The notes under the pieces: model-generated
What the model saw: the letters and a program-made list of their open reading frames with translations, nothing else
What the model was told of the DNA's origin: nothing
Database searches by the model: none
Shown here: positions 1-16,794 of the stretch, piece after piece
Position numbering within the stretch: the first letter of the stretch is position 1
Layout of the letters: the number at the start of each line of letters is the position of its first letter
Program-made: the position numbers and the translations under genes
Virus record (IMG/VR): IMGVR_UViG_3300044655_002769
Location: 1 to 20,390 of that record
Length of the DNA: 20,390 nt
Origin: a virus
Reading direction: 5' to 3' (one strand)

Positions 1-578
1 CAAATAAAAATTGCGATGCTCTTTGTACGGCTTTATGTACTATCCTACCAAAATACGAAATTAACACGCCAAATAGAATTGCAGCTTTCCTAGCTCAATG
101 CGGTCATGAATCAGGTGGATTTACAGTTCTACAAGAAAACTTAAATTATTCAGCTGAGGGATTAAGAAAAATCTTTCCTTCTAGATTTGCAACAGTGGCT
201 GCTGCTCAACCATATCATAGACAACCGGAAAAAATTGCCAATAAAATTTATTGCGATAGAATGGGTAATGGTCCAGAATCTTCAGGCGAAGGATACAAAT
301 TTCGTGGTCGTGGCGCGATTCAATTAACAGGCAAAGAAAATTATAGTAATTTTGCAAAATCAATTGGTAAATCTCTTGATGAAACAGTTGCATATTGCGA
401 AACATTAGAGGGAGCTATCTGTTCAGCGGCATGGTTCTGGACAACTCGTAAACTTAATGTATTCGCCGATTGTGGTGACATTCTTTCTATGACTAAAAAA
501 ATAAATGGCGGGACTATTGGAATCGAAGACCGCAAGAAACACTACGAACATGCATTGTATGAAATTAAAACGAGTTAA
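1..578 (+). CDS. GH19 chitinase-like endolysin (5' partial)
   Basis: The gene is cut by the left window edge. The reading frame is open from base 3, so about 192 residues are visible. Glycoside hydrolase 19-type lytic domain: the motif HESGGF (catalytic-type Glu at bases 108-110) is followed by ENLNYSAEGL, and GRGAIQLTGKENY lies further on; both blocks are hallmarks of phage GH19 endolysins related to chitinases. It probably cleaves the peptidoglycan glycan backbone at lysis. A GTG at 195 could be mistaken for a start but lies inside the domain, after the catalytic Glu. The gene ends two bases before a row of small membrane proteins that could act as holins, so this is a plausible lysis cassette. 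No N-terminal binding domain or signal can be judged because the start is missing. Confidence 0.88.
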   Translation, partial: NKNCDALCTALCTILPKYEINTPNRIAAFLAQCGHESGGFTVLQENLNYSAEGLRKIFPSRFATVAAAQPYHRQPEKIANKIYCDRMGNGPESSGEGYKFRGRGAIQLTGKENYSNFAKSIGKSLDETVAYCETLEGAICSAAWFWTTRKLNVFADCGDILSMTKKINGGTIGIEDRKKHYEHALYEIKTS

Positions 579-580
579 TT

Positions 581-874
581 ATGGACGTTCAAATACCAGC
601 AAATTTTGATTATTTTGGTTTAATAGAAGAGGTTGGATTTCCAATTACTCTTGCTATGGTTTGTGGTTGGTTTATTATGCAAGCTATGGAATTGGTATTA
701 GGTAGCGTTGTTAAATCAATTAAAAAATTAACAGGTTTAATTCGTTCAATGGATGGAAGAGTTCGTCAAATGAATACTGATGTATTAGAATTGGATGGAT
801 TAGTTTCTGGTTCGTTAATGGTTGACCCATTACCTGAAAATAGTTATTATACAATTAATCAGGAGGATAAATGA
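581..874 (+). CDS. small membrane protein 1 of a tandem trio, holin-like
   Basis: 97 residues. An N-terminal segment containing GFPITLAMVCGWFIM is a single transmembrane helix, followed by a probable amphipathic helix (roughly residues 45-75) with regularly spaced Leu, Ile, Val and Asp. Architecture and the GFPI motif resemble small phage holin-like proteins of the BhlA/UviB kind, but this is by eye only. It follows the endolysin by two bases and overlaps the next gene (ATGA). It shares its layout with the two following genes, suggesting tandem duplication. The role could be holin, or a membrane platform for the genes downstream. I am not certain of either. Confidence 0.6.
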   Translation: MDVQIPANFDYFGLIEEVGFPITLAMVCGWFIMQAMELVLGSVVKSIKKLTGLIRSMDGRVRQMNTDVLELDGLVSGSLMVDPLPENSYYTINQEDK

Positions 875-1155
875 ATCCGGAATATGTAAAATTTTTTACA
901 GATGTATTGGCTCCGACATTAGCAAGTTGTGTTGCAGGAAGTTTTATTTTTACTGCATTAAAATTTGTATTAAAAGATGTTATTGCAGCAGTTCATATTT
1001 TAGCGATTAGCGTTAAAGCATTAGAAAATAGGGTTAGATCTAGTTCACACGAATTAATTAAAATAGATGTAACAATTTCTTCAGTTTTAGGTTTACGTCC
1101 AGATTTAGAACGTATTTCCAGAGCTGATGGAAAAAATGACGCAAGAAAAGATTAA
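871..1155 (+). CDS. small membrane protein 2 of a tandem trio, holin-like
   Basis: 94 residues. The start overlaps the stop of the previous gene (ATGA) and has a good ribosome site (AGGAGG at 861-866). A hydrophobic segment near residues 12-30 (APTLASCVAGSFIFTALKF) is followed by a second hydrophobic or amphipathic stretch and a charged C-terminus. The segment LENRVRSSSHELIKIDVTIS matches in pattern the LIDRIRLLDNDLLRLTAKLN stretch of the third gene, so the two look paralogous although diverged. An alternative ORF in another frame (822-1010) is a shadow. Function unknown; part of a possible lysis or membrane complex. Confidence 0.6.
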   Translation: MNPEYVKFFTDVLAPTLASCVAGSFIFTALKFVLKDVIAAVHILAISVKALENRVRSSSHELIKIDVTISSVLGLRPDLERISRADGKNDARKD

Positions 1156-1167
1156 AAGGAAAAAATT

Positions 1168-1440
1168 ATGGGTGAAATAGGAGATTTAATATCTAAATAC
1201 GGATTTCCAATTGTAGCAGCAGGTTACATGTTAAAGATGGTAAAATATGTTTGGTCATATACCATCGATGAAATTAATCCAGTATTAGGGGAAGCAAGTA
1301 AAGAGTTGATTGCTCTTATCGATCGTATTAGATTATTAGATAATGATTTATTACGTTTAACTGCTAAATTAAACACAGTTCTTCAAATGCGAGAACAGCA
1401 ACAAGATCCAGTAGCAAAAAGAAATAATAGACAGAGATAA
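1168..1440 (+). CDS. small membrane protein 3 of a tandem trio, holin-like
   Basis: 90 residues, preceded by an AAAAGGAAAA ribosome site. N-terminal GFPIVVA-like segment (KYGFPIVAAGYMLKMVKYVW) predicted to span the membrane, then a long amphipathic or coiled-coil helix with Leu/Ile heptads (about residues 40-75) and a basic, Gln-rich C-terminus. The GFPI motif directly matches the first protein of the trio. Possible holin or pinholin; a membrane scaffold for the curli-like system that begins 4 bases later is an alternative. Confidence 0.6.
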   Translation: MGEIGDLISKYGFPIVAAGYMLKMVKYVWSYTIDEINPVLGEASKELIALIDRIRLLDNDLLRLTAKLNTVLQMREQQQDPVAKRNNRQR

Positions 1441-1443
1441 TAT

Positions 1444-1887
1444 ATGAAAAAATATTTACAATTATTTTTCATTATGTGTTTTTCAGTAGGAGTTAATGCA
1501 ACACCATTGACGTTTGAATTTAAAGATCCATCATTTTCAGGAAATGGTTGGTCGGCTCAGGTTATAACTTTAGAACAAATTGAAGCGCAACGTAAACAAA
1601 AAATTAAAGACGATCAATTGGCAGCAATTGCTAAAGCCGAAGTTGCTGCAAATAATAGCAATTTATCTAAATTTTTAGTTAATGTTGAATCTAGAATTTA
1701 TGCTCAATTATCAAAACAATTAACTGATCAACTGTTTTCTGATACAGGAGCAACATCAGGGACAATGGATTTTCAAGGAACATCAATTAATTGGATTAAA
1801 ACAGCTAATGATGTTACATTAACAATTATGGAAACAAACGGTAATACAACAGATATTACTGTGCCAATAGGACAATTCGGATTCTAA
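1444..1887 (+). CDS. csgF: CsgF-like curli assembly factor
   Basis: 147 residues with a classical signal peptide (positively charged start, hydrophobic core, cut near VNA|TPL at residue 19). The mature N-terminus TPLTFEFKDPSFSGN has the pattern of CsgF (Escherichia coli TMTFQFRNPNFGGN), the segment that plugs into the CsgG pore. Length agrees with the family (138 in E. coli). The middle (residues 35-75) is a charged helix, and the C-terminus (residues 98-147) is a Thr/Ile-rich beta-type domain. In curli systems CsgF is secreted through CsgG and couples the nucleator to the pore. The next gene is CsgG-like, two bases on, which strongly supports the call. I know of no CsgE-like gene in this window. 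Confidence 0.82.
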   Translation: MKKYLQLFFIMCFSVGVNATPLTFEFKDPSFSGNGWSAQVITLEQIEAQRKQKIKDDQLAAIAKAEVAANNSNLSKFLVNVESRIYAQLSKQLTDQLFSDTGATSGTMDFQGTSINWIKTANDVTLTIMETNGNTTDITVPIGQFGF

Positions 1888-1888
1888 T

Positions 1889-2683
1889 ATGAAATATATT
1901 ATTTTATCATTATTTTTATTACTTTCTGGTTGTTCACAACTTGCTCTAGAATTAGCAGCAGAAGAACCAGTTTCTGTTAAACCAAGAGCAAATCTATCAG
2001 AAAAACTTCCTTTTCTTGAAGGGGATTCAATTCCTATTTCTGTGTACGAATTTACCGATAAAACTGGGCAACGTAAACCGTCTGATAAATTAGCTCAATT
2101 ATCAACAGCTGTTCCACAAGGCGCAGAATCTTTTGTCATTAAAGCTCTACAAGATTCAAAAAATTGGTTTAAAGTTGTTGAACGCGTCGGTTTAGATAGT
2201 TTAGTTAAAGAACGTCAATTAATTAGAAATCAAAGAGAAGTTTACGAAAAAACTGAAGCAAAACCATTAACTCCATTGATGGTTAGCGGATTAATAGTAA
2301 CAGGAAGTATATCTGGTTACGATTCTGACATAAGATCTGGCGGTATTGGTTTACGATTATTTAAATTAGGTTTTACTGATGAATATCGTGTAGATAAAAT
2401 TACTATTTCAATGAGAGTTATCTCAGTTGCAACTGGAGAAGTTTTGTTATCGGTAATAACAACAAAAACAATTTATAGTTTTGCGTCAGGTGGCGGAGCT
2501 ATGATGTTTATTGGAACTGGTAATGTAACTGCTCTTGAAGCGGAAGTTGGTGATGCTGTTAATGAACCAATCACCGAAGGAGTTAGAGTAGCTATTGAAG
2601 ATAGTGTTTATTCCATGATACTTGAAGGTGAAAAGAAAGGTCTCTGGAAATTTAAAAAAGAAATGCAACCATTCCGCATATAA
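1889..2683 (+). CDS. csgG: CsgG-like outer-membrane curli secretion lipoprotein
   Basis: 264 residues (E. coli CsgG 277). A lipoprotein signal with lipobox LSGC gives acylated Cys15. Diagnostic CsgG stretches are visible: PISVYEFTDKTGQRKP, LSTAVPQGAE, ALQDSKNWFKVVER, KERQLIR, GSISGYDSDIRSGGIG, VATGEVLLSV, EVGDAVNEP and GLWKF near the C-terminus. CsgG forms a nonameric outer-membrane channel that exports curlin subunits from the periplasm. The constriction loop differs: where E. coli has YPASNF before STAVPQ, this protein has SDKLAQL, so the Tyr and Phe of the narrow ring are replaced while a polar residue (Gln) remains at or near the Asn site. Start chosen at the ATG with the signal peptide. 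It sits between CsgF-like and curlin-like genes. Confidence 0.9.
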   Translation: MKYIILSLFLLLSGCSQLALELAAEEPVSVKPRANLSEKLPFLEGDSIPISVYEFTDKTGQRKPSDKLAQLSTAVPQGAESFVIKALQDSKNWFKVVERVGLDSLVKERQLIRNQREVYEKTEAKPLTPLMVSGLIVTGSISGYDSDIRSGGIGLRLFKLGFTDEYRVDKITISMRVISVATGEVLLSVITTKTIYSFASGGGAMMFIGTGNVTALEAEVGDAVNEPITEGVRVAIEDSVYSMILEGEKKGLWKFKKEMQPFRI

Positions 2684-2694
2684 AGGAAAAATAA

Positions 2695-3330
2695 ATGAAA
2701 AAAATACAAATATATTTAATTATGTTTGTTATGCTTTTTGCTAAATCTGTGTTAGCTAGTGACGTTTTTATTGAACAAATTGGAAGTTCTTCTGAAATTA
2801 AAGTAACTCAGCAAGGAACTTCAAATAGAATAGGTAGTTCTTTAACTCCTTCGTTTTTTGGTGGAGATAGTAATAAATTTACAATTGAACAAGTTGGCGC
2901 TGTTAATGAATTGGATTTATTAATTAATGGTAACAATACAAATGTAACATTAGAAACATATGGTGCTGGTAATATCGAAAGTATTATTTGCGGAAGTAAA
3001 ACTACACCAAATTCGTGCGATAGTTCTACAATTGATTATACAATATCAGGTAATAATAATAAAATTACTACAAATTTAGGAGCTGCTGATAAATCTGCTA
3101 CAAGTAAAATGAATATTTCTGGTAATAATAATATTGTTACCCATACAGGAACACATACAAGCACTCTTGGTAGTAAAATATCGGCAGATTTAACTCTTAT
3201 CGGAAATTCAAATAAAATTGATATGACTCAATCAGGAAGTTTGGATGAAAACATTAAAGTCACCAGCACAGGCAACAACAATAACATTAGCATTACTCAG
3301 TCTTCTGTTATTACTTTACTCGCCCCGTAG
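2695..3330 (+). CDS. curlin-repeat amyloid-like secreted protein
   Basis: 211 residues with a signal peptide (cut near VLA|SDV, residue 22) and an AAAGGAAAAA ribosome site. The mature chain is built of curlin-type strand-loop-strand units with Ile/Val-x-Ile-x-Gln and Gly-Asn-Asn-Asn: FIEQIG, IKVTQQGTSN, FTIEQVGAVNE, ISGNNNKI, ISGNNNIV, LIGNSNKIDMTQSG, GNNNNISITQ. It is poor in aromatic and charged residues, as are CsgA/CsgB. It is the likely cargo of the CsgG-like pore encoded just upstream. Two cysteines (about residues 99 and 108) in the middle are not typical of CsgA. The last 86 bases overlap the next gene in another frame. Whether it is a fibre subunit or a nucleator cannot be told. Confidence 0.8.
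   Translation: MKKIQIYLIMFVMLFAKSVLASDVFIEQIGSSSEIKVTQQGTSNRIGSSLTPSFFGGDSNKFTIEQVGAVNELDLLINGNNTNVTLETYGAGNIESIICGSKTTPNSCDSSTIDYTISGNNNKITTNLGAADKSATSKMNISGNNNIVTHTGTHTSTLGSKISADLTLIGNSNKIDMTQSGSLDENIKVTSTGNNNNISITQSSVITLLAP
3234..3239 (+). promoter_or_regulatory. ribosome binding site deciding the FecR-protein start
   Basis: AGGAAG lies five bases before the ATG at 3245, inside the curlin-repeat gene. It supports a start deep within the upstream reading frame, which is needed to give the FecR protein its signal peptide. Confidence 0.65.
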
Positions 3331-4324
3331 TTTTGGAGCAATTGGTAAAGTTTCTGAACAAACTGGAGTAGCTGAAATACAGCGAAATAAACAATCGCTA
3401 CCAAGTGCTGTTAATACAGAAATTGAATCTATGGATGTCGTGGTTACTGCAAAAGGTAAACTCGACATTACTTTTAATGATAATACCAAAGTTTCCGTTG
3501 GCGAACAAAGTAAACTTGTAATTGACGATTTTGTTTATGACGCTAAAAAATCCACAGGAAAACTTGGATTAAAAATTGCATTAGGAACTGTTCGTTATGC
3601 CTCTGGGCAAATAGCAAAACATAATCCACAAAATGTTGGAATACAAACTCCAACGGCTACCGTTGCTGTTCGTGGTACAGATTTTTCTACAACAGTAGAT
3701 GAATTAGGTCAAAGTACATTTATTCTGTTACCAAGTTGCGATTTATCTGGTTGCGTAACAGGAGCTATTGAAGTTTCTACAGATGCAGGTTTTGTTTTAT
3801 TAAACCAAGCATTTCAATCAACTACTGTTTCTGATAAAACAAATTCTCCATCAAAACCAACTATAATTAATATTGATCCATTAAATATTAACAATAGCTT
3901 AATTGTATCTTCTCCAGTAAAAGCCGCTGACACAACAGTAACAGTTCAACAAATAAAAACTGGATTAGATGTTAATTTTCTTGATCAAGATTTTTTAACG
4001 TACAAACAATTAAGTATCAATTTATTAGATGTAAAAACTGATTTAGATAAAAATAAATTAGATGAAAAATTATTAACAAATGCATTAGACGAACCGATTG
4101 ATGATATTAGTGATATGCTACCTGGATATGATGAAAAAACAAATTTAAAATATAATACAAATGGAAAAGCATTAGTTCTTGATAAAGAAGCAACCAAAAA
4201 TAAATTTCAATTAAAAGTAGATAAAAATGCAGATGCAACTTTAAAATTAAATCAAGAAGGAACTGTTTTAACTCAAAATATTAACATGGGCACAACAACG
4301 AAAATAGATATTACACAAAAATAA
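3245..4324 (+). CDS. secreted FecR-domain protein with curlin-like C-terminus
   Basis: 359 residues. Signal peptide with core TLALLSLLLLLYS and cut near FGA|IGK (residue 32), encoded almost entirely within the overlap with the curlin gene. Residues about 33-150 form a FecR domain: glycan-binding-like beta repeats, VVVTAKGKLDITFNDNTKVSVGEQSKL, IALGTVRYASG and the TPTATVAVRGTDFST motif. FecR domains of this stand-alone type occur in secreted proteins, often next to CHASE2 cyclases, and one such cyclase is encoded four genes downstream here. The remainder is a Leu/Asp-rich helical-looking stretch (240-310). The last 30 residues (LKLNQEGTVL, KIDITQK) resemble curlin strands. It could anchor or nucleate the fibre; this is inference. 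Confidence 0.78.
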   Translation: MKTLKSPAQATTITLALLSLLLLLYSPRSFGAIGKVSEQTGVAEIQRNKQSLPSAVNTEIESMDVVVTAKGKLDITFNDNTKVSVGEQSKLVIDDFVYDAKKSTGKLGLKIALGTVRYASGQIAKHNPQNVGIQTPTATVAVRGTDFSTTVDELGQSTFILLPSCDLSGCVTGAIEVSTDAGFVLLNQAFQSTTVSDKTNSPSKPTIINIDPLNINNSLIVSSPVKAADTTVTVQQIKTGLDVNFLDQDFLTYKQLSINLLDVKTDLDKNKLDEKLLTNALDEPIDDISDMLPGYDEKTNLKYNTNGKALVLDKEATKNKFQLKVDKNADATLKLNQEGTVLTQNINMGTTTKIDITQK

Positions 4325-4327
4325 TAT

Positions 4328-5077
4328 ATGGATAAAAAATACCAAAGCATTTTTATTAGCGATATACATTTAGGAACAAAAGATTCTAAAGCAATTGAAT
4401 TAATTGATTTTTTAAAAAATAATACTTGCAATAAATTGTATCTTGTTGGAGATATAATTGATGGATGGAAAATACAACAAAATAAACTTAAATGGAAACC
4501 TAGTCATACAAAATTAATTCATAAATTTTTATCTTTATCGAGGAAAGGAACTGAGGTAATATACATAACAGGGAATCATGATGAATTTATTAGACCAATG
4601 GTTAATCTTAACGTCACCTTTGGTAAAATTTCAATTCATAATCAATATGAACATAATGGAATTGATGGTAAACGCTATTTGGTAACTCATGGAGATTTAT
4701 TTGATGGAATTACTAGGCTTGCTCCATGGTTAAGTTTTCTTGGAGATAAAGGCTATGATTTAATTTTATCATTAAATAATAAATTTAATTGGGTAAGACA
4801 TAAATTGGGATTTGGTTATTGGAGCCTAAGTAAATATTTAAAACATAAAGTTAAAAAAGCTGTCGATTTTATGTTCCAGTTCGAAATAAATTTAACAGAC
4901 TATTGCAAAAAACGTGGATATGACGGCGTTATCTGCGGACACATTCATCACGCGGAAATAAAAGAAATTAATGGTGTAACATATATGAATGATGGAGATT
5001 GGGTAGAATCATTAACGGCTTTAGTCGAACATCATGATGGTAGATGGGAAATTATAACATATAGTAAGGAGGAATAA
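4328..5077 (+). CDS. PlcP/LpxH-like metallophosphoesterase (phospholipid remodelling candidate)
   Basis: 249 residues, full length. Calcineurin-like metal site: SDIHLG (D12, H14), GDIIDGW (D42), GNHDE (N83, H84), THGD and CGHIHH (203-208) are all intact. The C-terminal half, GYWSLSKYLKHKVKKAV, YDGVICGHIHHAEI and NDGDWVESLTALVEHHDGRW, is typical of the COG2908 branch that includes PlcP rather than LpxH proper. PlcP enzymes cut the head group from phospholipids to give diacylglycerol under phosphate shortage and are usually followed by a glycosyltransferase (Agt), as here. Soluble or membrane-peripheral; no signal peptide. Start ATG follows the FecR stop by three bases without a clear Shine-Dalgarno. 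LpxH-like lipid A enzyme activity is the alternative. Confidence 0.82.
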   Translation: MDKKYQSIFISDIHLGTKDSKAIELIDFLKNNTCNKLYLVGDIIDGWKIQQNKLKWKPSHTKLIHKFLSLSRKGTEVIYITGNHDEFIRPMVNLNVTFGKISIHNQYEHNGIDGKRYLVTHGDLFDGITRLAPWLSFLGDKGYDLILSLNNKFNWVRHKLGFGYWSLSKYLKHKVKKAVDFMFQFEINLTDYCKKRGYDGVICGHIHHAEIKEINGVTYMNDGDWVESLTALVEHHDGRWEIITYSKEE

Positions 5078-5244
5078 TGTATATTTTAGTGGCATTACAA
5101 GCAGTAGCAGCATTAGGAACTAGTCTTTTTTGGCAACCAATTGGCGATTTTAGTTCGTATGAATCTTGTAAAGTAGCAATGGAACAATTACATAAATCAA
5201 AAGAGCATAGAGAAGGTGAAATGTATGTTTGCCTAAAAAAATAA
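5077..5244 (+). CDS. 55-aa hypothetical between PlcP-like and Agt-like genes
   Basis: 55 residues. It starts in a TAATG overlap with the metallophosphoesterase stop and has a strong AAGGAGG site at 5067-5072. The N-terminus (MYILVALQAVAALGTSLFW) is hydrophobic, either a signal-like segment or a short membrane anchor. The rest is charged, with two cysteines (31 and 52). It ends one base before the glycosyltransferase start. Not recognised; the position suggests an accessory to the lipid-modifying pair. Confidence 0.6.
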   Translation: MYILVALQAVAALGTSLFWQPIGDFSSYESCKVAMEQLHKSKEHREGEMYVCLKK

Positions 5245-5245
5245 T

Positions 5246-6247
5246 ATGAAAAAAACTATCTTAATAATAACAGACAATTTACCGAACCAAATTAATGGTG
5301 TGGTAACTACATTTAACAATTTAAAACGTGTTGGTGAACAAGAGGAGTTTACTTTTGAATTTATAACTCCTCTGGATTTTAAACATATTAACATGCCAAA
5401 ATATCCAGAAGTTAAATTAAGTTTTCCTTTTGGATTAACTAAGAAAATTAAAAAAATAAATCCAGATTTTATTCATATAGCAACAGAAGGTACTATTGGA
5501 ATTGCAGCTAAATTGGCGTGTAAGAAAAATAAATGGAAATATAACACGAGTTATCACACGAATTTCCCAGAATTCGTTAAAAAAATTTACGGAATACCAG
5601 AAAAAATTACATACAAATTTTTACGTTGGTTTCATAATCGTTCATATAAAGTTTTAACAACAACCAATACTATGGTTCAAGAATTAAAATCTAATGGATT
5701 TAAATGTGATGTTATTTCATGGACTAGAGGTATTAATAGAGAAGAATTAACTCCAACTAAACCAAAAGAAAATAGAGAACAAATTATATTGTTATCTGTT
5801 GGTAGAGTTTCTAAAGAAAAGAATTTAGATGTATTATGTCAACTATCAACTAATCCGCAATATTACATTCAAATTGTCGGAGATGGTCCATATAGAAAAA
5901 AACTTGAAAAAAAATACCCATTGGTAGAATTTGTTGGTTATAAATCTGGATCAGAATTAGCCGATTATTATGTTAATGCTGATGTATTTTGCTTTCCAAG
6001 TAAAACCGATACATTTGGAATTGTAATGATTGAAGCAATGTCATTGGGATGCCCTGTAGCTGGATATCCAGTTGCTGGTCCAATTGATGTTATTGAATCT
6101 GATGTTAATGGTTACATGGATGAAAATTTTGAAAACGCTATATTAAAATGTTTATCTCTTGATAGACATAAAGTTTATGTTAGCTCATTCAAATGGACTT
6201 GGGAAAATTGCTGGAAAATATTTAAAGAAAATCTTGTTCATAAATAA
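5246..6247 (+). CDS. GT4-family glycosyltransferase, Agt/SQD2-like
   Basis: 333 residues with a GT-B fold. The N-terminal domain has ITDNLPNQINGVVTT, PEVKLSFPFG, HIATEGTIGIAAK and SYHTNFPEFV; the C-terminal nucleotide-sugar domain has LLSVGRVSKEKNL, GDGPYRKKLE, FCFPSKTDTFGIVMIEAMS and PVAGPIDVI. This is the pattern of the family that makes glycolipids from diacylglycerol (Agt, SQD2/SqdX and relatives). Bacterial members commonly sit next to a PlcP metallophosphoesterase, as this one does. Predicted to act at the inner membrane, transferring a sugar to diacylglycerol. It is a little shorter than typical members (about 350-400). The donor sugar cannot be told from sequence; an alternative is transfer to lipid A or a polysaccharide. 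Confidence 0.85.
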   Translation: MKKTILIITDNLPNQINGVVTTFNNLKRVGEQEEFTFEFITPLDFKHINMPKYPEVKLSFPFGLTKKIKKINPDFIHIATEGTIGIAAKLACKKNKWKYNTSYHTNFPEFVKKIYGIPEKITYKFLRWFHNRSYKVLTTTNTMVQELKSNGFKCDVISWTRGINREELTPTKPKENREQIILLSVGRVSKEKNLDVLCQLSTNPQYYIQIVGDGPYRKKLEKKYPLVEFVGYKSGSELADYYVNADVFCFPSKTDTFGIVMIEAMSLGCPVAGYPVAGPIDVIESDVNGYMDENFENAILKCLSLDRHKVYVSSFKWTWENCWKIFKENLVHK

Positions 6248-6272
6248 TGTTTTAATATAACTTGAGGTAATA

Positions 6273-7031
6273 ATGAAAAAAATTGTTTTAGCTTTATGTC
6301 TACTATTTTCTACAGCTGTTCTTGCAAATCCAATCGATGACAAATGTTCACATTTTGCAACTTGGGGTGCTCCGCAAATTAAAACTGAAGGCGATAATCA
6401 ATATATCTGCAAAACCGGATATGCTGTTAATTTAAATTATAAAACCAAAGTCCCGTATTTTGTTATTGAACATATTACAGCTGATCACCTAAAAAAAGCA
6501 GTTGGTAGAAAAGATGATTTTCGTGAAGATGCAGAAGTTCCTGCTGAATACCGCGTAACATTAAAAGATTATGTTGGTTCTAACTTAGATCGTGGACACA
6601 TGGCACCCGCAGCAGATTTCGTTTATGATGCTAAAGTAATGAGCGAATCATTTTTCCTTGATAACATGATGCCTCAAAGTCAACCATTAAATCGCGGAGC
6701 ATGGAAATTACTTGAAGAAAAAACCCGCGACCTAGTTGCTCATGGCGATGTTTATGCTATTACCGGAACAATTTATGAGGGCGAATACAAAACTATTGGA
6801 AATAAAGTTGGAGTTCCCACTCATATTTACAAAGTAATTATTCAACCAAGCAAAGAAAGAATGATTGCATTTTTATTCCCTAATGAAAAAGTCGACCCAA
6901 AACAATTGGCAAAATATATTGTTCCTGTTGCTGATTTAGAAGTTAAAGCTGGTGTTGATTTTTCTCCGGCAATTCCAGAAAATTTAAAAGCATTAGAAGC
7001 AGTGGCAGCGAAATATGAAGATTGGTTCTAA
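6273..7031 (+). CDS. secreted DNA/RNA non-specific endonuclease (NucA/EndA type)
   Basis: 252 residues, with a TTGAGG ribosome site. Signal peptide with core VLALCLLFSTAVLA, cut near residue 18. The beta-beta-alpha metal nuclease motif DRGHMAPAADF (D106 to H109, catalytic His) and NMMPQSQPLNRGAW (metal-binding Asn131) are intact. Cysteines at about 25 and 46 may form a disulfide, fitting an exported enzyme. It degrades single- and double-stranded DNA and RNA in the periplasm or outside the cell. Its 3' end overlaps the cyclase gene by 17 bases. The role in a virus is open: clearing extracellular DNA, attacking competing DNA at entry, or nucleotide supply. Confidence 0.9.
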   Translation: MKKIVLALCLLFSTAVLANPIDDKCSHFATWGAPQIKTEGDNQYICKTGYAVNLNYKTKVPYFVIEHITADHLKKAVGRKDDFREDAEVPAEYRVTLKDYVGSNLDRGHMAPAADFVYDAKVMSESFFLDNMMPQSQPLNRGAWKLLEEKTRDLVAHGDVYAITGTIYEGEYKTIGNKVGVPTHIYKVIIQPSKERMIAFLFPNEKVDPKQLAKYIVPVADLEVKAGVDFSPAIPENLKALEAVAAKYEDWF

Positions 7032-9030
7032 ATTAAAAGCATTATTAAGTCCTTATTGGGCATTGGTAACTCTACTGCTAGTTTTAGCAGTTAGGGTTGC
7101 CGATCCATCATTTGTTGAATCGATTCGTCTTCGCTATTTCGATACATTAATTACATCTAAAGCTCCAACAGAAAATAATGTTTATACAGTTAACATTGAC
7201 GAAGCTGCATTAGATAAGTATGGTCAATGGCCATTTAAACGCGATTTTTATGCAGATACAATTGAAACATTATATTTACATAATGCAGGATTAGTTGTAT
7301 TTAATGTTTTAATGAGCGAAACTGACCGTTTAGGCGGAGATGATAAATTAGAACAAACTTTAAAAGTATTACCTGTTATTTTACCCAGTGTTCCTGCTGG
7401 TAAAACTAAAAATACTCCAAAGAATCCTGGATCGGTAATTTTAAATCCAGAATATCAAGATAAAATAGTTAGCTATCCTGGAATTATTTCCAATATTTCT
7501 GCATTAGAAAATAGTTCTGCTGGTGTTGGAACTGTTAATACGCTACCGGAAATTGATGGAGTTAATCGCAGAGTTCCATTACTAACATCAGTTAACAATG
7601 TATTGTATCCAGCATTAAGTCTAGAAACGTTAAGAGTTCTTGCACAGGATACAACATTTCAAGTAAAATTAAATGAATTGGGTGTAGAAAAACTGCGCAT
7701 TCCACAATTTGGTCCAGTTACAACAGATAGTCTAGGTAGAATCTGGATTGATTGGAGTCAAAAAAATCAAGCAGTAAGCATTACTGATATTCCTGCTGAT
7801 TTTGGTGGAGCTGTGGTTATTGTTGGAACAACTGCTGCTGGTATTGTAAATCCATTATCAACACCAATTGGAGCAGTTTATCCGCAAGATGTTCAGGCGG
7901 CTGTTATTTCTACTATGATTAATGGCGTAGTTATAGAACGTCCTGATTGGACAGATATGGCTGAAACATTAGCTATATTCCTAGGAGGGATCTTAGTTGT
8001 CGTTGGATCGCGCTGGACGTATGCATTTATCCCAGTAATACTAACGTTAGGTGCAAGTCATTTCGCAGCTGCATGGGTCTTTCAGAGCTATAATATGCTC
8101 ATTGACATTACAGCGTTTGTAGTTGGAATTGCATTAGTTTACGGGCATGCATATACCGTTAAATTTCTTTCTGAATATTTACAAAAAGAGCAAATTAAAA
8201 AACAATTTGGCGGATACGTTTCCCCTGTAATGGTTGAAAGATTACAAAAAAATCCAGATTTAATTAAATTAGGCGGAGAAAGAAAATTAATCTCCTCTGT
8301 TATGACGGATCTTCGCGGATTTACTACTTTAGGCGAATCATATGGTGATGATGTTGAGGGTTTAACTCAAATCATGAACGATTATATGACTGCTATTTCT
8401 GAACCTGTATTAAAAAATGATGGATGTATTATTAAATTTATTGGCGATGCAAGTTTACACATTCATGGTGCTCCATTAGATGATGAAAATCATGCGAAAG
8501 TTGCTGTTCAAACTGGATTAGAAATGGTTGAGGCTGTTACTCAATTTAATAAACAGTTAATTTCTCTGGGTAAACCTCCAGTTGGTATGGGTGTTGGTGT
8601 AAATTCTGGACCAATTTTAGTAGGTAACATTGGATCGAAATATAGATTCGGTTATGATGTACTAGGAGATACTGTATCATTAACTTCTAGATTAGAAGGG
8701 CAAACAAAAGGATATGGCGTGTTACTAATCCTTGGGGAAACAACAGCTGAATTAGTTAAAGATGATTTTAAATTAGCAGAATTGGATTGCATTGCAGTTA
8801 AGGGTAAACATATTGGTGTAAAAATGTTTACAGTAGCCGAAACTTTACCTGCGCATCAACAATATTTGAATGCATATTATGCAGGAGATTGGGGATCTGC
8901 TAGAGTTATATGTAAACATTTAGCTGAACAACCTGGACCTCTACAACATTATTATAAATTAATGCTAGAAAGAATCTCAGGCGAATGTCCAGCTAACTGG
9001 GATGGTGTATTCCACGCCCTCTCCAAGTAA
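7015..9030 (+). CDS. CHASE2-domain class III adenylate/guanylate cyclase
   Basis: 671 residues, the largest gene here. One N-terminal membrane helix (about 13-28), an extracytoplasmic CHASE2 sensor (about 40-310, with DEAALDKYGQWPF), three closely spaced helices (about 319-385), and a class III cyclase domain (about 425-610). Metal-binding Asp432 (TDLRGFTTLGE) and Asp478 (KFIGDA) are present, with Lys474 as in adenylate cyclases, Asp552 (VLGDT) and Arg559. The transition-state Asn of the usual VNLASR motif is Ser555 (VSLTSR), which could lower activity. Predicted to sense a periplasmic cue and make cAMP or cGMP. It starts inside the nuclease gene (17-base overlap) and ends flush against the convergent gene. 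Confidence 0.88.
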   Translation: MKIGSKLKALLSPYWALVTLLLVLAVRVADPSFVESIRLRYFDTLITSKAPTENNVYTVNIDEAALDKYGQWPFKRDFYADTIETLYLHNAGLVVFNVLMSETDRLGGDDKLEQTLKVLPVILPSVPAGKTKNTPKNPGSVILNPEYQDKIVSYPGIISNISALENSSAGVGTVNTLPEIDGVNRRVPLLTSVNNVLYPALSLETLRVLAQDTTFQVKLNELGVEKLRIPQFGPVTTDSLGRIWIDWSQKNQAVSITDIPADFGGAVVIVGTTAAGIVNPLSTPIGAVYPQDVQAAVISTMINGVVIERPDWTDMAETLAIFLGGILVVVGSRWTYAFIPVILTLGASHFAAAWVFQSYNMLIDITAFVVGIALVYGHAYTVKFLSEYLQKEQIKKQFGGYVSPVMVERLQKNPDLIKLGGERKLISSVMTDLRGFTTLGESYGDDVEGLTQIMNDYMTAISEPVLKNDGCIIKFIGDASLHIHGAPLDDENHAKVAVQTGLEMVEAVTQFNKQLISLGKPPVGMGVGVNSGPILVGNIGSKYRFGYDVLGDTVSLTSRLEGQTKGYGVLLILGETTAELVKDDFKLAELDCIAVKGKHIGVKMFTVAETLPAHQQYLNAYYAGDWGSARVICKHLAEQPGPLQHYYKLMLERISGECPANWDGVFHALSK

Positions 9031-9366
9031 TTAACAACCTGTATAAACGTTGTTAAACTCGATAATAGAATCTGAAATTTCTTGATATGTTTGATAGAAA
9101 ATATCCGGTTTACAGGCATAAAATTCACCCTGTACACCTCGAATAATATAGTCACCTTCGGTAGCTATATGTTTGACCTGATAGGAATCCTGGCCATCCT
9201 CTAGGGTTCCAATCTGCAACCATCCTTTGGCATCAGGATGCCTATCCTTTCCAGAGGCTATGAATTCGCTTCCAAGCCAATCTTTTAGTTCCTGAATACA
9301 CTTATTGTTATATTCAAATTTAATCGCCTCAATGGTCACTGGGCGTTTCATATATTGTTTAATCAT
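9031..9366 (-). CDS. conserved phage hypothetical protein
   Basis: 111 residues. It resembles a small protein seen in many phages, with N-terminal RPVTIEAIKFEYN and C-terminal EGDYIIRGVQGEFYACKPDIFYQTY (compare the common pattern GDWI-x-GV-x-GEFY-x-CKPDIF). Function unknown. The ATG at 9366 overlaps the upstream stop; an ATG at 9351 (MKRPVTIEA) is an equally possible start and would match relatives better. The stop codon touches the stop codon of the cyclase on the other strand with no spacer, and no terminator is visible at the junction. Confidence 0.72.
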   Translation of the reverse strand: MIKQYMKRPVTIEAIKFEYNNKCIQELKDWLGSEFIASGKDRHPDAKGWLQIGTLEDGQDSYQVKHIATEGDYIIRGVQGEFYACKPDIFYQTYQEISDSIIEFNNVYTGC

Positions 9367-9598
9367 CTTCGAACACCGCTACGACTTCATCTTCTGAAAC
9401 AACCCATAACTCTCCAGAAACATTTTTTGCTTTATTCCAATTCAAAAGAATAATGTCGCCTAATTTAAGTAATGTAACATCATGACCTAAGTTCATGACT
9501 TTTCCTTTTGTATTATCTTCAGAGTTAACGCCATAAATTAAACCCTGATATTCCGCTTTTTGTTTTAAAACAAGAACGTTTTTCCCCAATACTTGCAT
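9359..9598 (-). CDS. mini GroES-like co-chaperonin
   Basis: 79 residues, shorter than GroES (97) or T4 gp31 (111). The fold signature is visible: VLGKNVLVLKQK at the start, then KGKVMNLGHDVTLLKLGDIILLNW and VVSEDEVVAVFE at the end, matching GroES GKV-x-x-x-G, LKVGDKVLF and DDILAVIE. The mobile-loop region (about residues 16-30, EYQGLIYGVNSEDNT) is short, as in gp31-type phage proteins that partner the host GroEL for capsid folding. Start ATG has an upstream TAGGAAA ribosome site and lies 25 bases after the tmRNA terminator stem. Confidence 0.68.
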   Translation of the reverse strand: MQVLGKNVLVLKQKAEYQGLIYGVNSEDNTKGKVMNLGHDVTLLKLGDIILLNWNKAKNVSGELWVVSEDEVVAVFEDD

Positions 9599-9615
9599 AA
9601 TATTTTCCTATAGTT

Positions 9616-9640
9616 AATAAAAGGGGATGTTTCCATCCCC
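9616..9640 (-). terminator. rho-independent terminator after the tmRNA
   Basis: On the minus strand, GGGGATG (9640-9634), loop GAAA, CATCCCC (9629-9623), followed by TTTTATT. It abuts the end of the tmRNA coding piece and separates it from the GroES-like gene. Only the minus strand has a T-rich tail. Confidence 0.85.
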
Positions 9641-9811
9641 AAGCCGTTCTGTTTCCAAGTGGCTTAATCTCAGGCTAATCTCACGCTGCTAGAGCGTAAT
9701 CTCCATAGTTTGCATCATTTGCTGCATTTACTTTGATTTATGCTGATTACGTCAGTCATCTCTCGTGTTGCCTTCTCTACTATCTCACCTGATCGAAACC
9801 ATGACAGCCCC
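9641..9811 (-). ncRNA. tmRNA coding piece
   Basis: It begins at GGGGCTG (9811) with the D-loop-like region, then a pairing segment, the tag reading frame, and a final hairpin AAGCC...GGCTT (9665-9641) probably part of a pseudoknot. The 3' end is placed at the terminator boundary and is approximate. Confidence 0.8.
9681..9725 (-). other. tmRNA proteolysis-tag reading frame (AANDANYGDYALAA)
   Basis: From GCA at 9725-9723, the codons give AANDANYGDYALAA then TGA. The start AAND and the end ALAA match known bacterial tags (E. coli ANDENYALAA; Caulobacter AANDNFAEEFAVAA, from memory). Resumption at the second GCA (9722) would give 13 residues instead of 14. Confidence 0.85.
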
Positions 9812-15909: not shown

Positions 15910-16794
15910 TTAAAGTTTATTAAATTTTTTATCATATTTTGGTAACCATTTTAGCGATCCGTCATTATACATATTTTTTATTTCAATTTGAGATAATCTT
16001 TGAATATGATTTTCTGTAATTATTTTAAAATTTTCACCAAAAAGATTTTTAGCGGCATTAAATTTAGATAAATTTAAACCAGAATTTATTAGTTTTTTAG
16101 GTTTTATTTCTATATAAATTTTAGAATCTATTAAATAATAGTCAGGGAAATAATTTCTATATTTGTTTTTTATTGAATCAAAATATTTTATTTTATGTTT
16201 ATCTAATTCACCAGATTCAAATTTTATTCCATTATCCAATAAATATTTTAAATAAGACAATTCTAATATAGATCTAAAATATATATCAAAATACCAACCT
16301 GACCAACCATTTCCTGAACCTTGCGGAGAAGGTTTACCAAACATAGGATTTAATTCGCCGGAAGTTGATTTAGAAATTTTGTTTCTATATTCTTGTTTTT
16401 TAATATCAACAGTTTCTTTATCGTATTTACTTTCCCAAACTGTAAATGGGTGTTTTTTATTAGCAACAAGTTTTAATAATTCTCTAGATTTTTGTCTATC
16501 TTCATCAGTCCAAATTTTTTTTCCTTGTTTTGATTTAGATTCTTCGGTGTGCTTTTTACCGAAGAATGGGTTGTTCTCCCCTTTTTGTTTTTCGTTTAAC
16601 ATTTGTAAAGAACATTTAGCGCAAGGTTTATTTTTAGAAAGAGCGACATTACTCTCATTAGATAATTTTCGCTCTTCTTTACAAATAGGGCATATTATTA
16701 AACATCTACAATGTTCGCACAAATTTCTTTGTTTTCTAAAATTTTTAAATTCAATATTACATTTAATACAATTTTTTAGAGTAAATTTTTCCAT
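15910..16794 (-). CDS. free-standing homing endonuclease (NUMOD3, PD-(D/E)XK-like)
   Basis: 294 residues, GGAAATTATTT before the ATG. N-terminal paired cysteines (CIKC, CEHC, CPIC, CAKC) suggest zinc-binding knuckles. Two NUMOD3-type DNA-binding motifs follow: GENNPFFGKKHTEESKSK (about 92-109) and GELNPMFGKPSPQGSG (about 147-162). The C-terminal catalytic domain has FRSILELSYLKYLLDN, then YFPDYYL...YIEIKPKKL, a PD-(D/E)XK arrangement related to Vsr-like homing nucleases. It promotes spread of its own gene to cognate sites. Its stop touches the leader of the RNA ligase gene, and a truncated kinase start lies just upstream, marking an insertion. More AT-rich than its neighbours. Confidence 0.8.
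   Translation of the reverse strand: MEKFTLKNCIKCNIEFKNFRKQRNLCEHCRCLIICPICKEERKLSNESNVALSKNKPCAKCSLQMLNEKQKGENNPFFGKKHTEESKSKQGKKIWTDEDRQKSRELLKLVANKKHPFTVWESKYDKETVDIKKQEYRNKISKSTSGELNPMFGKPSPQGSGNGWSGWYFDIYFRSILELSYLKYLLDNGIKFESGELDKHKIKYFDSIKNKYRNYFPDYYLIDSKIYIEIKPKKLINSGLNLSKFNAAKNLFGENFKIITENHIQRLSQIEIKNMYNDGSLKWLPKYDKKFNKL

Follow-up and report, generated by a model that had tools for sequence, protein, structure and literature searches.

A phage-borne curli-type secretion module with a lipid-remodelling-like gene pair among its cargo

Introduction

Genes of curli-type secretion have been reported from phages in studies published in 2020 and 2022. They describe csgF and csgG in marine pelagimyophages (PMC7029224), the curli genes of the OM43 phage Melnitz, with the idea that they form a lysis pore (PMC9004378), and a set made of HK (histidine kinase), CsgF, CsgG, CsgA/B, FecR, a second CsgA/B, and adenylate cyclase (AC) in SAR11 podo- and myophages (PMC9599517). 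CsgF, CsgG, and curlins are annotated in the records of two isolates, HTVC008M and Melnitz, and relatives of CsgG are present in at least 594 viral stretches of IMG/VR. Here, we analyse a stretch of 20,390 bases from an IMG/VR virus record (IMGVR_UViG_3300044655_002769, positions 1-20,390; the window) that carries such genes. An earlier reading of the same letters (the original prediction) held that this is not a standard module, a view that the published and annotated cases contradict. The phage-borne curli-type module is real and its kind is already known; this copy adds a gene pair resembling those of lipid remodelling. Judging from the sequence, we give a probability of roughly one half to the reading that it is a type VIII secretion (curli) module with which the infected cell would build an adhesive amyloid-like coat.

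The locus resembles the type VIII secretion system modules of HTVC008M and Melnitz in its csgF-csgG-curlin-fecR-cyclase order, in the small proteins of the same family upstream, and in giving no match to CsgE. It also follows the published pattern of csgF-csgG-csgA/B-fecR, then frequently a cyclase; the second curlin gene, frequent but not universal in that pattern, is missing (PMC9599517). Unlike the two isolates, the window has no second curlin, carries a plcP-agt pair and a nuclease in the slot between fecR and the cyclase, and has three small membrane proteins instead of two; its CsgG is 43-46% identical to theirs. Of the elements by which type VIII secretion is recognised, the window has a CsgG pore lipoprotein, its partner CsgF, and a curlin-repeat subunit with a hydrophobic N-terminus. 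The likeness to the curli of Escherichia coli extends to CsgF, the curlin repeats, and CsgG, where a profile of 14 phage sequences covers positions 3-259 of 277 (3x2r, E = 2.8e-69). The differences are the lack of a CsgE match and the addition of FecR, a CHASE2 cyclase, and the small membrane proteins. Profile searches of the window match neither CsgE nor a second curlin, as originally predicted.

Core genes of the module

The original prediction placed CsgF-like, CsgG-like, curlin-repeat, and FecR-domain genes, in this order, at 1444-4324 of what looked like a phage contig, with strong motif matches for the first two. Pfam searches recover all four in that order, each above the curated cut-off. 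CsgF (1444-1887; this gene and all others described below between positions 3 and 9030 are on the + strand) matches PF10614 (E = 2.7e-18) and has a hydrophobic N-terminus, with TFEFKDPSFSGN near the likely mature N-terminus; a single-sequence search of PDB structures gave no CsgF match. The outer-membrane pore lipoprotein CsgG (1889-2683; PF03783, E = 2e-44, and E = 1.2e-46 in a second search) has the lipobox LLSGC, and the lipoprotein cysteine C15 is invariant in 14/14 phage CsgG. The curlin-repeat fibre protein (2695-3330) gives the weakest match among the named genes (PF07012, E = 2.4e-5, 24.6 bits for a cut-off of 20.7). It has a hydrophobic N-terminus, and in the alignment of 22 phage relatives the Q/G/N columns of the repeats are conserved, as are two cysteines (C99 and C108). 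Its structure model is all-beta, with repeated strand-turn-strand units (mean pLDDT 84.6, pTM 0.78). The FecR-domain protein (3245-4324; PF04773, E = 3.4e-11) has a signal-peptide-like N-terminus.

The extent first proposed is correct for these four genes and incomplete in two respects: the FecR frame overlaps the curlin frame, and the module runs on to position 9030. The FecR frame starts inside the curlin gene, in a different frame, and the 86 shared nucleotides (3245-3330) code for both the last curlin repeat and the signal-peptide-like stretch of FecR. Across 62 modules, which remain of 96 after dereplication at 90% CsgG identity, the two frames overlap by at least 20 nucleotides in 36, touch in 25, and are separated by a gap in one; starts of open reading frames (ORFs) were set at the first possible start, hence the overlaps are upper bounds. 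Such an arrangement would fit translational coupling.

The last gene of the module encodes a CHASE2 sensor with a class III nucleotide cyclase (7015-9030; PF05226, E = 4.5e-40, and PF00211, E = 2.3e-19). Residues D432, D478, K474, and R559, which we take to be the two metal Asp, the Lys, and the Arg of cyclases, are kept in 100/100 aligned phage-type sequences, including that of the window.

We compared the window with five relatives and obtained omega values of 0-0.39 for csgF (missing in L011; L numbers denote loci retrieved in our searches), csgG (0.09-0.15), curlin, fecR, the nuclease, the cyclase, and two genes outside the module, with synonymous divergence near saturation in the more distant pairs and with plcP, agt, and the small membrane proteins outside the comparison. 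These ratios indicate purifying selection on those core genes that entered the comparison.

Distribution in viral and bacterial genomes

Profiles derived from the genes of the window, together with their relatives in L001-L063, were tested on 65 other viral csgG loci (80 were returned, 15 of which belonged to the earlier set), which are not dereplicated. The block recurs in them, in answer to the suggestion that related phage genomes be searched for it: csgF is found in 65, curlin in 63, fecR in 59, the small membrane proteins in 52, and the cyclase in 46, and the six loci without fecR span 4.1-11.3 kb. When only the 44 loci of at least 12 kb are considered, csgF, curlin, and fecR are present in 44/44, the cyclase in 37, and the small membrane proteins in 35. 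These figures are fairer than those of the table of 62 modules, which pools csgG, small-protein, and plcP queries with loci from our bacterial and archaeal set (genome_contigs), so that its small-protein and plcP counts are inflated, and in which contig ends hide genes (e.g., in L012). In a collection of 50,697 phage records, CsgG relatives occur in seven: HTVC008M twice, Melnitz four times, and a 1.5-kb record. The latter is labelled as a Salmonella phage (OR851715.1, 226-957), encodes a CsgG at 38% identity, and may be host DNA.

The bacterial control consisted of the best 80 of 112 csgG loci from 84,980 bacterial and archaeal genomes. Only nine of the 80 have fecR, a cyclase, or a strong small-protein match, and all nine are in metagenome-derived bins; the weak small-protein match of Azospirillum soli (L069, E = 4e-4) is left uncounted, and one short binned contig (L066) stops before partner genes could show. 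In the isolated Vibrio and Flavobacterium of the control, csgG is accompanied by no match to fecR, the cyclase, or the small proteins. Because the FecR-cyclase-small-protein set is common in viral csgG loci and so restricted in the control, it is a phage-type arrangement, as FecR, AC, and HK are in the accessible account of PMC9599517. Phage-type curli modules, whole or partial, do lie in published bacterial bins (L080, L084, L064, L067, and L128), and L080 and L084, from one Sphingobacteriales bin, also encode UvsX, a DnaB-type helicase, a DNA polymerase, and a clamp loader of phage families. In L109, genes for an alternative oxidase and an iron-sulfur protein (2Fe-2S, 4Fe-4S) lie near such a module (925-2218).

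Small membrane proteins and endolysin upstream

The three small membrane proteins that precede csgF (581-1440), of 90-97 amino acids, belong to one family. Paralogue 1 (581-874) has one hydrophobic segment, at residue 22, and possibly a coiled-coil-like tail. Paralogue 2 (871-1155) has its segment at residue 17 and the C-terminus DAR[KR]D, an ending shared with most relatives. Paralogue 3 (1168-1440) has a conserved LIDRIRxLDND and a hydrophobic stretch below the threshold of 1.5. Three copies characterise the lineage of the window, L013-L019 included. Relatives mostly have pairs, often either immediately upstream of csgF and on its strand or past the cyclase on the opposite strand, and in some cases between fecR and the cyclase.

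The module had been described as lying directly after phage lysis genes. This is right for the endolysin (GH19/chitinase type; 3-578, cut by the left end of the window), whose region 195-578 matches phrog_181 (E = 2.6e-44) and the chitinase-type PF00182 (E = 1.3e-6), and which reaches 345 amino acids at full length in L007, a longer contig with an identical CsgG. It probably does not extend to the three small proteins, whose family travels with the curli module: among the best 80 of at least 551 viral loci found with them, 74 have csgF, csgG, fecR, or the cyclase alongside, and none of the remaining six contigs exceeds 8.7 kb. A family member from L028, searched against the 50,697 phage records, matches only HTVC008M and Melnitz. 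We take the small membrane proteins as part of the module, where they perhaps work with the sensor or with export at the inner membrane.

Two other labels were considered for them and not adopted. Evidence for a holin role amounts to weak matches, while the family tracks the curli genes instead: 581-874, the sole paralogue run against PHROGs, hits the holin family phrog_4898 at E = 0.028 and phrog_18771, of unknown function, at E = 1.3e-14, and the YvrJ matches of 581-874 (E = 0.036) and 1168-1440 (E = 0.015) are below the cut-off. As for histidine kinases, no kinase domain is matched in the three proteins or in the 11 family members scanned. We suppose that the published HK label before csgF means this small-membrane-protein family.

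Variable cargo between fecR and the cyclase

Relatives of the window have varying cargo between fecR and the cyclase, and sometimes between csgF and csgG. The table of 62 modules counts a second curlin in 34, an autotransporter barrel in eight, plcP in nine, agt in 10, and a nuclease in five; among the fresh loci, the 44 that reach 12 kb have plcP in three cases, agt in four, the barrel in three, and the nuclease in none. The content of the slot turns over fast, since cargo differs between phages whose core is about 90-100% identical. For instance, csgG, curlin, fecR, the nuclease, and the cyclase of L011 are about 90% identical to those of the window, and plcP and agt are absent; L010 lacks the window's 55-amino-acid ORF between them. 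L008 and L009 are 98-100% identical to the window from csgF to fecR, yet their nuclease is only 41-43% identical.

The cargo of the window starts with a PlcP-type metallophosphoesterase, a putative phospholipase C of lipid remodelling (4328-5077; PF00149, E = 1.3e-11), followed by the 55-amino-acid ORF (5077-5244), an Agt/GTcp-type GT4, a putative glycolipid synthase of 333 amino acids (5246-6247; PF00534, E = 2.7e-25), and a DNA/RNA non-specific endonuclease with a hydrophobic signal-peptide-like N-terminus (6273-7031; PF01223, E = 1.6e-52). The PlcP and Agt classes were assigned by motifs, profiles, and gene neighbourhood, with no characterised PlcP or Agt sequence in the comparison. In described systems, PlcP-Agt turns phospholipid into glycolipid under phosphate stress (PMC4796936), and GTcp, the glycolipid synthase of SAR11, has 334 amino acids and the motifs GRVAXEKN and FPSXTDTFG (PMC8231724). 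The GT4 of the window has both UDP-sugar motifs (GRVSKEKN at 186 and FPSKTDTFG at 250), one with Ser for Ala, and the metallophosphoesterase precedes it as in the PlcP-Agt operon (PMC4796936, PMC8231724). Unlike that operon, the pair is phage-borne, lies within a curli module, has an ORF in between, and is of putative activity. ORFs of 56-59 amino acids occupy the plcP-agt junction of L010, L168, L181, and L224.

Relatives of the metallophosphoesterase occur in 6/9 genomes searched (the best three 46-51% identical), those of the GT4 (E of 1e-30 or better) in 56/142 genomes of the class of our Azospirillum genome, and the phosphoesterase gene adjoins a GT4 gene in 28 of the 30 best bacterial loci. 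We rejected an identification as LpxH, given 37.8 bits for a cut-off of 190.35, and 48.2 for one of 134 with another LpxH model. Phage plcP-type genes are found in at least 596 viral stretches; among the best 80 of these loci, a glycosyltransferase gene is present in 35 and csgG in eight. With this and the three occurrences of plcP in the 44 fresh loci, the pair is cargo and not core, and we discarded it as a constant part of the module. We found no paper on phage-encoded plcP in the open-licence literature, nor a prior description there of a PlcP-Agt-type pair with a nuclease in the fecR-cyclase slot. Such a pair in a phage would tie infection to membrane-lipid remodelling and phosphate supply.

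The second curlin-like proteins of relatives often have a putative glycan-binding head. The scan of 34 of them gave an F5/8C-type domain in eight, PA14 in five, and GLEYA in one, which is possibly among the five with PA14. The head is N-terminal and the match to our in-house curlin profile C-terminal in 10 singly inspected proteins and in those of HTVC008M, L163, and L173. Seven of the singly inspected ones have F5/8C at residues 186-357 and the match to the curlin profile (domain E = 1e-8 to 1e-19) beyond it, and the second curlin of HTVC008M combines PA14 with Pfam curlin repeats. Large proteins of L023, L031, and L048 also have F5/8C domains, accompanied in L031 by an autotransporter domain (E = 1.2e-14). 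Autotransporter-like proteins were seen in the curli modules of L046 (13099-15150), L020 (3078-5093), and L031 (13041-15392). The model of the 683-amino-acid protein of L046 is a helix followed by 12 strands, and its top PDB matches in Foldseek are the NalP translocator (E = 9e-11, TM score on the target 0.79) and the EstA autotransporter (E = 1.4e-10). Outer-membrane barrels usually end in Phe, and so do 24/24 proteins kept by our barrel profile, which was iterated on pooled loci, keeps only matches reaching the C-terminus, and misses the longest F5/8C proteins (L023 and L048).

The texts of PMC7029224 and PMC9599517 accessible to us mention neither PA14, discoidin, autotransporters, nor lectins, and that of PMC9004378 neither PA14, discoidin, nor autotransporters. 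In the open-licence literature, we found no paper on phage autotransporters and no prior description of F5/8C or PA14 heads on second curlin-like proteins, or of autotransporters in the modules, of such relatives. That the same glycan-binding fold seems to be displayed by two unrelated routes is the strongest hint of a job in surface binding.

Function and rival explanations

In the adhesive reading, Sec would export the parts of the module, and a ring of CsgG capped by CsgF would export curlin, which would stack into a fibre on the cell. Through the FecR protein, the CHASE2 sensor may be informed about the condition of the periplasm or of export, and would respond by making cAMP or a related nucleotide. 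The fibre would stick infected cells to one another, to new hosts, or to particles, and in many relatives it would be complemented by a sugar-binding head, on a second curlin-like protein or an autotransporter. In the phage studied here, the PlcP-Agt-type pair would convert phospholipid of the host to glycolipid, which would release phosphate and alter the envelope; next to the pair lies a nuclease that is probably secreted. Among the roles initially listed, gluing cells together or coating them appears the best, and it gains from the glycan-binding heads of relatives; for fibre delivery at lysis, the position of the endolysin is the sole argument. A bolder and more tentative proposal is that of an exchangeable surface-display island, where a constant core (the small-membrane-protein pair, CsgF-CsgG, curlin, FecR, and the CHASE2 cyclase) would sense and drive export, and a quickly swapped slot would provide the effectors (curlin-like proteins with lectin heads, autotransporters that bind glycans, or, in the window, enzymes rewriting membrane lipids). 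With its surface made adhesive and chemically changed, the infected cell would then possibly act as a trap in which the next hosts collect. What curli genes do in these phages has been variously explained in print, from lysis to the capture of cells. The sugar-binding heads of curlin-like proteins, together with the autotransporters that occupy the same slot, speak for adhesion, a role that can be tested in HTVC008M, with its PA14-curlin protein, and in Melnitz.

Several observations weigh against the adhesive reading. The authors of PMC9004378 report that Melnitz-infected cells showed no clumping in cytograms or transmission electron microscopy. The window has no glycan-binding head, and 15/62 modules have none of the extra cargo scored. 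The Pfam curlin repeat is found in only 11/34 second curlin-like proteins and in none of the seven singly inspected F5/8C proteins, so their naming as curlins relies on the in-house profile. A Foldseek search with the curlin model gave no confident match among solved structures (best E = 0.036), so the fibre fold is a prediction; the L046 model, with a mean pLDDT of 69.6 and a pTM of 0.45, is weak beyond its barrel. CsgE gave no match in the window and none in 10 further phage records, in a search that did match a Vibrio and failed with an Azospirillum having csgG; given this failure, and since CsgE is called non-essential in PMC7029224, we do not treat it as defining. One position near the conserved cyclase residues is Asn in 46 and Ser in 54 of the 100 sequences, and Ser in the window. 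We take this position to be that of the transition-state Asn, and its replacement by Ser suggests that cyclase activity may be low.

The lack of CsgE, the known gate, fits the proposal made for Melnitz (PMC9004378) that CsgG, alone or together with CsgF, helps to trigger lysis as a gated pore of the outer membrane or a pinholin-like element, and the window's module is directly 3' of an endolysin gene. This type of endolysin, the only one sought, is near just 4/62 modules (too low by at least one lineage, because L013-L019 have it and their representative L012 ends before it) and 3/44 fresh loci. Moreover, curlin is constrained and present in all of these 44, two curlin-associated repeat proteins are annotated in the Melnitz record despite the statement in PMC9004378 that csgA/csgB are lacking, and a lysis pore is a poor fit with sugar-binding heads and autotransporters. 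We thus regard it as improbable, and the heads, the autotransporters, and the exchangeable slot with the lipid pair and nuclease make us favour surface adhesion or remodelling. We hold in similarly low regard an uptake pore, an idea raised in PMC7029224 and PMC9599517, by which larger molecules would enter through an ungated CsgG and the block, including PlcP and the nuclease, would salvage phosphate and nucleotides to build phage DNA. The PlcP-Agt-type pair and the signal-peptide-like nuclease do sit inside the module here, but plcP and csgG are mostly apart in the viral loci surveyed, and curlin and CsgF would be left unexplained. Superinfection exclusion, suggested in PMC9599517, deserves somewhat more credit while still being unlikely: a fibre coat and altered envelope lipids would mainly block adsorption of rival phages, which fits the envelope-changing genes, whereas sugar-binding heads suggest binding something rather than shielding alone.

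CsgG and CsgF are bacterial families, and seven of the nine genome_contigs loci with partner genes are not shown to be phage; one could thus imagine a host csg operon in a misassigned contig. This explanation is largely refuted and we give it very little weight. The nine loci with partners all come from metagenome-derived bins, and two of them (from one bin) have phage replication genes. The window itself contains an ATP-dependent DNA ligase, an exonuclease, and an RNA ligase/tail-fibre-attachment protein of phage families, and L007 encodes a phage head protein (phrog_240, E = 2.8e-28); the possibility, raised with the original prediction, of a bacterial contig devoid of phage hallmarks is thereby set aside. 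From this gene set and from the filing of the module's relatives HTVC008M and Melnitz as Kyanoviridae, we infer a T4-like phage. The gp23 model matches 2/15 records among longer contigs and the terminase model 8/14 records or genomes, with both present in a 161-kb record (L040); against a phage origin, neither model matches L007 or two other long contigs near-identical to the window, all three of which are fragments.

Other features of the window

The right half of the window carries, on the - strand, a GroES-like gene (a weak match to phrog_3188, E = 2e-5, with none in Pfam), a permuted tmRNA, an exonuclease, a DNA ligase, UvdE, a thioredoxin, an RNA ligase with an AAA-type N-terminus, and a NUMOD3 gene. 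The permuted phage tmRNA (9590-9992, - strand; tag AANDANYGDYALAA) matches a betaproteobacterial tmRNA model. Since phage tmRNA need not follow the host (PMC9004378), we claim no host from this match. The tmRNA of Melnitz lies under a glutamine riboswitch (PMC9004378), which was not found in the window at Rfam's gathering threshold. A T4-type late promoter, TATAAATA, was rejected for the module: it has one match in the window, outside the module, for 5.7 expected by chance. In positions 1-9700, there are 43 sigma-70-like sites (47.8 expected) and nine terminator-like sites (4.2 expected). The NUMOD3-motif endonuclease-like gene (15910-16794, - strand) adjoins the RNA ligase gene.

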